In this document: positions 431 to 13,903 of the stretch, piece by piece
Layout: the number at the start of each line of letters is the position of its first letter
Numbering within the stretch: position 1 is the stretch's first letter
Assembly (NCBI RefSeq): GCF_937870815.1
Contig: NZ_CALMZS010000211.1
Location: forward strand, 1 to 64,000
Direction: 5' to 3'
Length of the DNA stretch: 64,000 nt
Origin: an uncultured Brevundimonas sp.
GTDB lineage: Bacteria; Pseudomonadota; Alphaproteobacteria; Caulobacterales; Caulobacteraceae
The notes under the pieces: model-generated
Databases searched by the model: none
What the model saw: the letters and a program-made list of their open reading frames with translations, nothing else
What the model was told of the DNA's origin: nothing
Position numbers and translations under genes: made by a program

Positions 431-486
431 CCTTCCCCCCTTGCGGGGGAAGGTGGCCCGCGGAGCGGGTCGGATGGGGGGTGTGA
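431..486 (+). repeat. REP-like palindromic element A (two hairpins)
   Basis: CCTTCCCCC-CTTGC-GGGGGAAGG hairpin, then CCCGC-GGA-GCGGG hairpin, then TCGGATGGGGGGTGTG. An inverted copy is at 871..927. Confidence 0.85.
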
Positions 487-516
487 GCACCGGCCGCTCC
501 CGGCTAAGCTCCACCC

Positions 517-930
517 ATGGCCGTCCACCACGACCGCGCCTACGCCTCTGCGCGTCGCCAGCGCAAAACCCCGACCACCGCCGAAAAGGCGCTGTGGGCG
601 CTCGTCCGTGACCGACAGACCGACAACCTGCGCTTCCGCCGTCAGATGCCCATCGGTCCGTATGTCGCCGACTGCTGCTGCCCTTCGCTCAAGCTCGTGC
701 TCGAAGCCGACGGCGGCGTCCACGTACTGCGAGAGACCGAGGATCAGGCGCGGGACGACTGGCTTCGCTCCCAAGGCTTCGTCATCCTGCGCTTCCCGAA
801 CGAGACGATTCTTGTAAAGCTGAACACCGTCCTCGATGAGATCCGCGCCCATGCCGCCAAGACCGGGGAACACACCCCCCATCCGTCTCGCTCCGCGAGC
901 CACCTTCCCCCGCAAGGGGGGAAGGTGATC
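517..930 (+). CDS. DUF559 domain (Vsr-like endonuclease fold) protein; in-frame with downstream holC (ORF 517..1392)
   Basis: ARRQRKTPTTAEKALWALVRDRQTDNLRFRRQMPIGPYVADCCCPSLKLVLEADGGVH is the DUF559 signature. The ORF continues through repeat B into HolC without a stop. Confidence 0.85.
871..927 (-). repeat. REP-like palindromic element B (inverted copy of A)
   Basis: The reverse complement CACCTTCCCCCCTTGCGGGGGAAGGTGGCTCGCGGAGCGAGACGGATGGGGGGTGTG aligns with element A. Second-stem changes C>T and G>A are compensatory. Confidence 0.85.
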
Positions 931-933
931 AGC

Positions 934-1392
934 ATGACCCCGAAGCCGGAAATCTGGTTCTACCATCTGGAGCGCTCGAGGCTGGACCAGGTGCTGCCCG
1001 GCCTGCTGGAGAAGACCCGCGAACGGGGCTGGCGGGCGCTGGTCCGCGCCGCCGACGAACGGCTGCTCGAGGACATCGACGAGCGGCTGTGGACCTACCG
1101 GGACGACAGCTTCCTCGCCCACGGCGGCGACTCCGGGCCCGAGGCGGCGCGCCAGCCGATCGTGCTGACGCGGGGCGGCGAGAACCCGAACGGCGCTCAG
1201 GCGCTGTTCATCCTGGACGACGCAGAGCTTGGCGATACGAAAGGGTTCGATCGATGTTTCATCATCTTCGACGGCAGGGACGAGGCGGCCCTGGCCTCGG
1301 CCCGGGCGCGCTGGAAGACGCTGAAGGCCGCGGGCGCGAACCTGGCCTACTGGAGACAGTCTCCCGAGGGGCGCTGGGAAAAGGCGGCCTGA
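934..1392 (+). CDS. holC: DNA polymerase III chi subunit
   Basis: MTPKPEIWFYHLERSRLDQVLPGLLEKTRERGWRALVRAADERLLEDIDERLWTYRDDSFLAHG... is typical HolC. ATG at 934. Confidence 0.9.
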   Translation: MTPKPEIWFYHLERSRLDQVLPGLLEKTRERGWRALVRAADERLLEDIDERLWTYRDDSFLAHGGDSGPEAARQPIVLTRGGENPNGAQALFILDDAELGDTKGFDRCFIIFDGRDEAALASARARWKTLKAAGANLAYWRQSPEGRWEKAA

Positions 1393-10405: not shown

Positions 10406-11400
10406 GCCCGGCCCCGCCGCTGGCCCTGACCATGGGCGAGCCGGCGGGCGTGGGACCCGAGATCATCGCCGCCGCCTGGCGCGCCCTGAACGATGGGGCC
10501 CAGCCCTTCGCCGTGGTCGGCGACGCCGGCCTGATGCGCGCCCAGGGGGTCCCCGTCCAGCCGATCGCCGCCGCCGCCGAAGCCGCCGCCGTGTTCGGCC
10601 GCGCCGTGCCGGTGCTCGACTCCCCCCTGCCCGCCCCGGTGACGGCGGGGCGGCCCGAGCCGGCCAATGCGGGCGCCGTGGCCGACTGGATCGAACAGGC
10701 CGTCAGCCTGGCCCTGGCCGGGGAGGTCGCGGGCCTGGTCACCGCCCCGATCGCCAAGGCGCCCCTGTACGCCGCCGGCTTCCGCTTTCCGGGCCACACC
10801 GAATTCCTCGCCGAACTGACCGCCGACGCCCCCTTCGCCGGGACGCGCGGGCCGGTGATGATGCTGACCGCGAAGGACCTGCGCGCCTGCCTGGTGACCA
10901 TCCATGCGCCGCTGGCCGAGGTCCCCGAACTGGTCACCGCCGAGCGGGTGACCCGCACCGCCCGGGTCGTGCACGAGGCCCTGCGGCGCGATTTCGGCGT
11001 CGCCCGGCCGCGGCTGGCGCTGGCGGCGCTGAACCCCCACGCCGGCGAGGGCGGGGCGCTGGGGCTGGAGGAGATCGAGGTGCTGGCCCCGGCGGCGGCG
11101 GCGCTGCGCCAGGAGGGCATCGACGTCACCGACCCCCGGCCGGCCGACACCCTGTTCCACGACGCGGCGCGGACCGGCTATGACGCGGTGCTGTGCCTGT
11201 ACCACGACCAGGCGCTGATCCCGGTCAAGACGCTGGACTTCTGGGGCGGGGTCAATGCGACCCTGGGCCTGCCGGTGGTGCGCACCTCGCCGGACCACGG
11301 GACCGGGTTCGACATCGCCGGCACGGGCGCGGCCCGGGCGGACAGCCTGATCGCGGCGGTGCGGCTGGCGGGGGAGATGGCGGCGGCTCGGGCGGGGTGA
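10402..11400 (+). CDS. pdxA: 4-hydroxythreonine-4-phosphate dehydrogenase
   Basis: TMGEPAGVGPEII, ALNPHAGEGGALGLEE and LYHDQALIPVKTLDF motifs. Confidence 0.95.
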   Translation: MSPAPPLALTMGEPAGVGPEIIAAAWRALNDGAQPFAVVGDAGLMRAQGVPVQPIAAAAEAAAVFGRAVPVLDSPLPAPVTAGRPEPANAGAVADWIEQAVSLALAGEVAGLVTAPIAKAPLYAAGFRFPGHTEFLAELTADAPFAGTRGPVMMLTAKDLRACLVTIHAPLAEVPELVTAERVTRTARVVHEALRRDFGVARPRLALAALNPHAGEGGALGLEEIEVLAPAAAALRQEGIDVTDPRPADTLFHDAARTGYDAVLCLYHDQALIPVKTLDFWGGVNATLGLPVVRTSPDHGTGFDIAGTGAARADSLIAAVRLAGEMAAARAG

Positions 11401-11450
11401 TCCTCCCCCGCAGGGGGAGGGGGACCATCCGCAGGATGGTGGAGGGGGAC
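11399..11450 (+). repeat. REP-like palindromic element C
   Basis: GATCCTCCCCC-GCA-GGGGGAGG GGG ACCATCC-GCA-GGATGGT GGAGGGGGAC. Confidence 0.85.
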
Positions 11451-11510
11451 TTGGTCCCATCTCCGGTTGAGGCGACTTGCGAACCCGTCGTGCGTCTATA
11501 GGTTGTTCGA

Positions 11511-11885
11511 ATGGACGCACCCGACCTGACCATCGCACGCGCCAGGGAGCTACGCCGCAGGATGTCCCTGCCCGAAGTCCTTCTCTGGAAAGCCGTGCGG
11601 CGGGACAAGCTCGGCGCCCGTTTCAGACGCCAGCACCCGGAGGGCCCGTGGATCCTCGACTTCTATTGCCATGCCGCCCGGCTGGCCGTGGAGATCGACG
11701 GCGCAGGCCATGATGATCCGGACAGGATGCTGCTGGACCGGAAACGCACCCGCTGGTTGGAGCAGCGGGGGATCTCAGTGCATCGGATTCCCGCGCGGGC
11801 GGTGCTGGGGAATCTGGATGGGGTGCTCACCGGGCTGAAAGAGCGGATTGGACGAGGCCCCCTCCACCATCCTTCGGAGGAATAG
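11511..11885 (+). CDS. DUF559 domain (Vsr-like endonuclease fold) protein
   Basis: ARARELRRRMSLPEVLLWKAVRRDKLGARFRRQHPEGPWILDFYCHAARLAVEIDGAGHDDPDR. The C-terminus reads into a repeat. Confidence 0.88.
   Translation: MDAPDLTIARARELRRRMSLPEVLLWKAVRRDKLGARFRRQHPEGPWILDFYCHAARLAVEIDGAGHDDPDRMLLDRKRTRWLEQRGISVHRIPARAVLGNLDGVLTGLKERIGRGPLHHPSEE
11857..11880 (-). repeat. Truncated REP-like element D'
   Basis: GGCCCCCTCCACCATCCTTCGGAGG, a partial copy of the inverted element that supplies the last DUF559 codons. Confidence 0.7.
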
Positions 11886-11910
11886 GGTCCCGCCGGTTGT
11901 GGGGAGGTCA

Positions 11911-11962
11911 GCCCCCCTCCACCATCCTTCGGATGGTCCCCCTCCCCCTGGGGGGGAGGATT
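11911..11962 (-). repeat. REP-like palindromic element D (inverted copy of C)
   Basis: GCCCCCCTCCACCATCCTTCGGATGGTCCCCCTCCCCCTGGGGGGGAGGATT. Confidence 0.85.
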
Positions 11963-11976
11963 GCGTATGAAGCCCG

Positions 11977-12855
11977 GTGACCCCCGCCGACCTCCCCTCC
12001 CTGCGCCAAACCCTCGACGCCCACGGCCTGCTGGCCAGGAAGAGTTTCGGCCAGCATTTCCTGCTCGACCTGAATGTGACGCGCAAGATCGTCCGGCTGG
12101 CGGGGCCGTTCGAGGGGCGGGCGGTGATCGAGGTGGGGCCGGGGCCGGGCGGGCTGACGCGGGCCCTGCTGGAGAGCGACGCCGGCCAGGTGGTGCTGGT
12201 CGAGAAGGATCCGCGCTTCCTGCCGCTGCTGGCCGGGCTGGACGACGGATCCGGCCGGCTGGTCGTGGTCGAGGCCGACGCGCTCAAGGTCCGCGAGGCC
12301 GAGATGGTCGAAGGACCCGCCCACGTGGTCTCCAACCTGCCCTACAATGTCGGCACCGCCCTGCTGATCAAATGGCTGACCGGGCCGTGGACGCCGCACG
12401 CCCTGACCCTGATGTTCCAGAAGGAGGTGGCCGAGCGCATCGTCGCCGCCCCCGGGGACGAGGCCTACGGCCGGCTGGCGGTGATCGCCCAGGCGGTGAC
12501 GGAGGCGCGGCTGGTCATGCACCTGCCCGCCGCCGCCTTCACCCCGCCGCCCAAGGTTGCGAGCGCGGTGGTTCATCTGGTCCCGCGCGCGGACCGGCCG
12601 GACGCGGAGACGCTGAAGCGGCTGGAGCGGGTCACGGCGGCGGCCTTCGGGCAGCGGAGGAAGATGCTGCGCTCGAGTTTGAAGCCGCTGGGCGGGGCGG
12701 CGCTGTGCGAGGCGGCGGGGCTGAGTCCCGAGGACCGGGCCGAGGTCATCGATCTGGCCGGCTTCCTGCGGCTGGCGCGGGCCGTAGCCGGGCAGGCGCC
12801 GCCGGAGGGGCCGGGCGACGGCGGGGCGGCGATGATGCGGCGCAAGCGGGGGTGA
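11977..12855 (+). CDS. rsmA: 16S rRNA dimethyladenosine transferase
   Basis: LLARKSFGQHFLLD, VIEVGPGPGGLTRALL and VSNLPYNVGTALLIKWL motifs. Confidence 0.95.
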   Translation: MTPADLPSLRQTLDAHGLLARKSFGQHFLLDLNVTRKIVRLAGPFEGRAVIEVGPGPGGLTRALLESDAGQVVLVEKDPRFLPLLAGLDDGSGRLVVVEADALKVREAEMVEGPAHVVSNLPYNVGTALLIKWLTGPWTPHALTLMFQKEVAERIVAAPGDEAYGRLAVIAQAVTEARLVMHLPAAAFTPPPKVASAVVHLVPRADRPDAETLKRLERVTAAAFGQRRKMLRSSLKPLGGAALCEAAGLSPEDRAEVIDLAGFLRLARAVAGQAPPEGPGDGGAAMMRRKRG

Positions 12856-13273: not shown

Positions 13274-13903
13274 ATGGATGAGACGGCGAAAACCAGGAAG
13301 ACCCGGAACCCCTACCGCTATCACGGCGACGACGTGTGGGCGCTGGTGCGGGAGCGGTATCTGGCGGGCGAGAGCGCGCGGCAGATCGGCGAGGCGCTGG
13401 GGCCGACCGAATACGCCATCCGCTCGCGCATCACCCGCGAGGGCTGGACCAAGCGGTCGCTGGCCGAGGCGAAGTCGGCCGGGATCGTGGCGGCGGCGCG
13501 GGCGGACAGGGAGGCCGGGGTCGCGGCGCTGGCCGGACCGGCGGGAGCGGACGGGCCGGAGGCGCTGGACCCCCGGGCCGCGGCGCGGGCGGCGCTGGAC
13601 GAGGCGGTGCGGCTGATGCGCCGGGGGCGGATGGCGGCGGCGGCCGAGGCGGCGCGGGTGGCGGACGTGATGGCGCGGGCGGCGGCGCGGCTGGACGGCG
13701 ACGCGAGCGCGGACCCGGGCGAGCCGGACGAGGCGGCGTATGAGGCGGTGCGGCGGAAGGTGCTGGGGCTTGATCCTCCCCTCCTGGGGGAGGGGGACCG
13801 CGAAGCGGTGGAGGGGGTCTTCGGCGACGACGGCGCCTGGGAAAGGCCCCCTCCACCACCCTTCGGGCGGTCCCCCTCCCCCAGGAGGGGAGGATTTGAA
13901 TGA
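13274..13903 (+). CDS. Hypothetical HTH protein, candidate small terminase subunit
   Basis: N-terminal HTH (ARQIGEALGPTEYAIRSRITREGWTKR), directly upstream of and overlapping a GTA-type large terminase. C-terminus is encoded by a REP doublet. Confidence 0.55.
   Translation: MDETAKTRKTRNPYRYHGDDVWALVRERYLAGESARQIGEALGPTEYAIRSRITREGWTKRSLAEAKSAGIVAAARADREAGVAALAGPAGADGPEALDPRAAARAALDEAVRLMRRGRMAAAAEAARVADVMARAAARLDGDASADPGEPDEAAYEAVRRKVLGLDPPLLGEGDREAVEGVFGDDGAWERPPPPPFGRSPSPRRGGFE
13773..13817 (+). repeat. REP-like palindromic element E
   Basis: ATCCTCCCC-TCCTG-GGGGAGGGGG ACCGC-GAA-GCGGT GGAGGGGG. Confidence 0.85.
13845..13895 (-). repeat. REP-like palindromic element F (inverted partner of E)
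   Basis: GGCCCCCTCCACCACCCTTCGGGCGGTCCCCCTCCCCCAGGAGGGGAGGATT. Confidence 0.85.

Follow-up and report, generated by a model that had tools for sequence, protein, structure and literature searches.

Inverted hairpin elements bracket a DUF559 nuclease gene between pdxA and rsmA of Brevundimonas and suggest a repeat module moved by a nuclease in place of a transposase

Introduction

DUF559 is a common bacterial protein family of unknown function. For the palindromic repeats of GC-rich Proteobacteria, we know of no assigned mover outside the RAYT systems. Both subjects meet in a 64,000-nucleotide stretch of DNA from an uncultured Brevundimonas sp. (hereafter the window), where a small DUF559 gene separates pdxA from rsmA and is enclosed by inverted hairpin elements. 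The locus raises the question of whether the gene and the elements belong together, and which of them moves the other. A nuclease–repeat module matched clade by clade is offered here as an answer for both the role of DUF559 and the mover of the repeats.

Results

The pdxA gene ends with the stop codon TGA at 11398-11400, and rsmA starts with GTG at 11977. The first base of the terminal palindromic element C (11400-11451, plus strand) is the A of this stop codon. Element C comprises an outer hairpin at about 11402-11420, an inner hairpin at about 11424-11440 and a G-rich tail, and DNA folding gives the two hairpins with -14.7 kcal/mol. Its inverted partner, element D (11910-11961), is an exact match to the element pattern on the minus strand, folds likewise into two hairpins and ends 15 nt before the rsmA start codon. 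The two arms of 52 nt each are 94% complementary and lie 458 nt apart. The DUF559 gene is located between them at 11511-11885 on the plus strand. Its C-terminus, GPLHHPSEE, is mostly encoded by a truncated third element copy on the minus strand (11855-11878), a direct repeat with 96% identity (23/24) to 11910-11933. The first-pass annotation had described this order of pdxA stop, element, DUF559 frame and inverted element, with a truncated element supplying the last codons, and the coordinates and the complementarity confirm it. The conserved element ends that it had noticed were also recovered: ATCCTCCCC is present in C, in D and in a pair lacking an open reading frame (ORF) at 13773-13895, and the ends of the C/D family read ATCCTCCCC / GGGGAGGAT. 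The flank-arm score of the C/D locus is 45-46, far above the mean of 15.6 (sd 4.0) for 250 window positions, so the bracketing goes beyond chance.

The encoded protein of 124 amino acids matches the PF04480 profile with E=1.9e-24 and 86.1 bits (cut-off 20.6), and its AlphaFold model has a pLDDT of 90.6. Protein alignment shows an intact PD-(D/E)XK-type core, D50 and E61-x-D63, with D50, E61, D63, H67, R40 and Q41 invariant. The dN/dS of DUF559 is 0.06-0.24 where measurable; judged from sequence, the gene is under purifying selection. Among the fold matches of the model, the Neisseria protein NGO0050 (3hrl) is the best, the homing endonuclease I-Bth0305I (3r3p) the second, and Vsr (1vsr) a weaker one, and sequence profile matches reach I-Bth0305I (E=7e-4) and PvuRts1I. 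PADLOC and PHROGs searches gave weak, partial matches only, and the Rfam search returned weak chance matches to miRNAs, far below the gathering scores.

The window contains a second DUF559 gene at 517-900 on the plus strand, with a PF04480 match at 541-849; the given end of this gene is nominal. It is flanked by element A (431-493, plus strand), which folds as DNA, and its inverted partner element B (863-925, minus strand), with an arm score of 51. These elements belong to another family (CCTTCCCCC..GGGGGAAGGTGGC[hairpin]CGGATGGGGGG). Both DUF559 genes of the window thus share the bracketed layout, and the earlier reading of A/B and C/D as one architecture in two distinct sequence families holds. 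The genome as a whole carries five DUF559 genes. Four lie between inverted elements, each with a sequence family of its own, and the one on contig C138 has an element pair on its upstream side only. Nuclease-free pairs of the C/D family were found in the window (left arm 13773-13817, plus strand; right arm 13847-13895, minus strand) and on contigs C2, C43, C161 and C123. The frame of the A/B gene (window 517-950; open frame of 294 aa) continues without a stop across element B and into the following ORF. DUF559 proteins frequently end in a tail encoded by an element, with further cases at L001 and L003. The ORF-less pair of the window (13773-13903) supplies the C-terminal codons of a 209-aa ORF (13274-13903); a terminase-like ORF with its start at 13900 follows directly downstream.

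Clean inverted arms were found at 75 of the 116 DUF559 genes (approximately 65%) in 61 Caulobacterales genomes, compared with equally high scores at 7 of 249 other window positions. About one third of the DUF559 genes have no clean arms at the threshold used. The arms fall into several element sequence families, and the copy number of DUF559 is 0-9 per genome at patchy sites. In a swap control, 44 of 300 combinations scored 24 or higher. This shows that common families recur, and the arm score alone is therefore not proof of pairing; the proof is provided by the clade tests. Element similarity correlates with protein identity in a Mantel test limited to arms selected at a score of at least 24 (r=0.59, permutation sd 0.03). 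The correlation is retained after the removal of pairs with common flanking genes, that is, at non-orthologous sites (r=0.54; 2689 pairs, permutation maximum 0.12). Protein pairs from different sites share the element family in 91% of cases at 70-80% identity and in 5% of cases below 40%. Mapped on a tree with 197 DUF559 proteins (162 genes labelled by element family), the eight families require 13 changes, versus a minimum of 71 with shuffled labels. Element families thus track nuclease clades, and the nuclease–repeat co-evolution that the first-pass annotation had suspected from two genes is supported. That each DUF559 type carries its own hairpin type across Proteobacteria suggests that the enzyme moves the repeats in place of a normal transposase.

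The elements also occur without the gene, and dozens of nuclease-free pairs are present per genome. In the genomes G025 and G030, 33 neighbouring pairs have their outer hairpins directed outward and none inward. Their spacers mostly measure 41-68 nt, with clusters at 41-49 and 61-68 nt, and a DUF559 gene lies inside two of the 33. Among 31 distinct C/D and 38 distinct CT inner sequences, each position of the inner stem takes several kinds of base pair, and the sequence varies freely while its pairing is kept. The inner lengths change mostly in twos (7, 9, 11, 13), in keeping with the addition of complete base pairs. There was no excess of direct repeats, as a target-site duplication would leave, in 30 CT and 5 CD pairs. 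The number of CT elements follows the number of CT-type DUF559 genes (rho 0.68; 0.46 once the flanking copies are subtracted), and in the cross-family control it does not follow the number of C/D-type genes. Within the genus, the numbers of C/D elements and C/D nucleases show no significant relation (rho 0.22, p=0.20); this is where the analysis is weakest. Both element families and DUF559 are missing from the 99% complete genome G023, and in the draft genome G013 (85% complete) C/D elements are present and no DUF559 gene was found. Several contigs of G013 and G025 start or finish inside the elements, and some DUF559 loci are therefore probably missing from draft assemblies. The loci L023 and L024, with 99% identical DUF559 and unlike flanks, were considered as a recent jump; their downstream neighbourhood is partly homologous, and the case was dropped as proof.

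The pdxA-rsmA gap of relatives is mostly 2-24 nt long, and a search with the joined flanks found the junction empty, as one continuous match, in approximately 89 of 131 genomes of the genus. One genome (G153, locus L197) carries a C/D-type DUF559 gene at this junction in the orientation opposite to the window copy. The dS between the two DUF559 genes is 1.30 compared with 0.28-0.29 for pdxA and rsmA, so a single insertion passed on vertically does not account for both copies. The first-pass annotation had left room for a ubiquitous gene inherited vertically at this site; the empty junctions and this divergence speak against it. The G153 copy appears frameshifted and has doubled elements on its flanks. 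In four further genomes (G007, G030, G031 and G066) the junction holds a DUF559 gene of another clade with CCTTCTCCC elements. At least two DUF559 lineages have entered the junction in independent events. In G026 an ORF-less element pair occupies this place, and G106 (L190) has a lone outer hairpin. The latter reads ATCCTCCCCC-ACAC-GGGGAGGAT and resembles a left outer end fused to a right outer end; it is possibly an excision scar. A third inverted family (TAGTGGTTAGTGG ... CACTAACCACTA), also ORF-less, fills the gap in close relatives (L185, L186, L189, L192-L194, L201 and L203; L047 and L049).

A scan of named genomes yielded 80 relatives, most of them from Caulobacterales and Sphingomonadales and some from Rhizobiales, and 65 of these have arms with a score of at least 24. 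Most of these arms are of the C/D type, TCCTCCCC..GGGGAGGGGGACC[hairpin]GGTGGAGGGG. On a Sphingomonas plasmid, a DUF559 gene is placed between transhydrogenase subunit genes. In a phylum-wide sample, DUF559 was detected in 108 of 299 genomes, and inverted arms, often of the CCCTCTCCC type, were seen at roughly half of the 30 loci examined, including families outside the class. The distant-homology scan was built on 11 DUF559 proteins; a set of 31 diverse proteins gave no conserved stretch.

A similar layout surrounds nucleases of the GIY-YIG fold. Of the 30 GIY-YIG loci of the genus (L265-L294), 20 score at least 24, and most are bracketed by TCCGCTCATCCCNGCG..GGGACCCAG palindromes. GIY-YIG-type palindrome pairs without an ORF lie between pdxA and rsmA in four relatives. 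The GIY-YIG proteins at L265-L294 are single-domain, and the inverted palindromes that bracket them (TCCGCTCATCCCCGCG..GGGGACCCAG) are of a family other than those at the DUF559 genes. The bracketed nuclease layout may be general.

The Y1 (HUH) transposase of the RAYT systems (PF01797) had no match in 36 congeners (G001-G036), in which a single family has as many as 84 elements, and the element ends are without a GTAG tag. The name "REP-like" given in the first-pass annotation is therefore apt for the architecture and does not stand in the sense of RAYT-type REPs. The genome of the window has one weak Y1 transposase match (G000:C64:34518-34838) within a 405-aa open frame.

Discussion

We propose to read C-DUF559-D as one autonomous copy of a mobile module that resembles REPINs and has a cognate Vsr/EDxHD-type PD-(D/E)XK nuclease and not a transposase. 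We regard this assignment as probable, and the existence of a module as very probable. The ends of the unit would be the two inverted elements with two hairpins each, and its enzyme the cognate DUF559 nuclease; inverted pairs of the same elements, approximately 30-70 nt apart and lacking the nuclease, would spread as well. We infer recognition, cutting and movement, and the details of cutting and repair are put forward tentatively. The nuclease may recognise its own element, perhaps in single-stranded or cruciform state, by the hairpin shape together with the conserved G-rich segments, and would then nick or cut it. To our knowledge, the PD-(D/E)XK fold makes no covalent strand-transfer intermediate, and for this reason host break repair is invoked for the insertion. 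With the C/G-rich arms as a guide, copying or rejoining might insert the unit at new intergenic sites; alternatively, repair could convert an element pair into a nuclease-bearing pair. Since no target duplication is seen, no insertion chemistry can be defined.

The main rival explanation is homing, in which something else moves the elements, and existing pairs are invaded by DUF559 as a homing endonuclease gene that uses the elements as homology arms for break repair. The close fold match to I-Bth0305I agrees with it, as do the ORF-less and DUF559-bearing pairs of related families at the same junction in different species (L202 and the window) and the composite arrays of the type pair-DUF559-pair (L028). 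However, no other mobility enzyme was found, the Y1 search in the 36 congeners included, and homing explains neither the new pairs at element-free sites nor the rise of CT-pair number with the number of cognate nucleases. We consider it unlikely.

It is also conceivable that DUF559 serves the host as a very-short-patch-repair-type (VsrA-like) enzyme and that the palindromes are incidental terminators or passengers. The DUF559 family includes Caulobacter VsrA, which has been described as a repair enzyme of the Vsr kind and linked genetically to cytosine methylation (PMC12907096), and the fold predicted here resembles Vsr. A host function does not account for the tracking of protein clades by element families at non-orthologous sites or for a varying copy number at patchy sites, and the window gene adjoins pdxA and rsmA, with no cytosine methyltransferase gene beside it. 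This explanation appears improbable. A shared hot spot, with small genes and palindromes both landing after stop codons in short operon gaps and co-occurring by site preference, is largely refuted and very improbable. The pdxA-rsmA gap does house at least two unrelated ORF-less palindrome families, but site preference alone cannot match element family to nuclease clade, nor keep one match from Brevundimonas to Sphingomonas. That DUF559 is a passenger of an ordinary RAYT-type REP/REPIN system, which the inverted doublets with short spacers resemble (PMC3116915), is hardly credible, given that the 36 congeners gave no PF01797 match and the element ends carry no GTAG tag.

The nuclease-driven module may have a wider meaning. 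There is about an even chance that it belongs to a general class of bacterial mobile DNA driven by stand-alone nucleases, in which at least two unrelated folds, DUF559 and GIY-YIG, are each bracketed by cognate hairpin repeats and spread them, the nuclease-free pairs being non-autonomous followers. If this is true, such a class would explain the origin of many orphan palindromic repeats in Proteobacteria. If the movement is confirmed, a route of repeat spread without a transposase would be added.

Among the open-licence papers searched, no report linking DUF559 with palindromic repeats was found. The nuclease belongs to the same protein family as Neisseria NGO0050 (3hrl) and the PRK09767-type DUF559 proteins. 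With the EDxHD homing endonuclease I-Bth0305I (PDB 3r3p) it shares the fold of the catalytic domain (TM 0.61-0.62 by query, E ~1e-4); unlike that enzyme, it is found without an intron or intein, is bracketed by its own repeat family and occupies many unrelated intergenic sites. The fold is likewise that of Vsr (1vsr, prob 0.99) and relates it to Caulobacter VsrA (PMC12907096), from which the locus differs by the lack of a linked cytosine methyltransferase and by terminal palindromes matched to the nuclease clade. As in IS elements and MITEs, there are terminal inverted repeats and autonomous and non-autonomous forms, but neither a DDE or other transposase nor a target-site duplication in the 35 pairs. 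The REPIN-RAYT systems (REPtrons; PMC3116915, PMC3733652) also have palindromes in inverted doublets with short spacers, dozens of intergenic copies, and for each element family a cognate gene with elements on its flanks. In those systems the enzyme is a Y1 HUH transposase, whereas here it is a PD-(D/E)XK DUF559 nuclease, each element has two hairpins and no GTAG tag, and several nuclease copies per genome occupy patchy sites.
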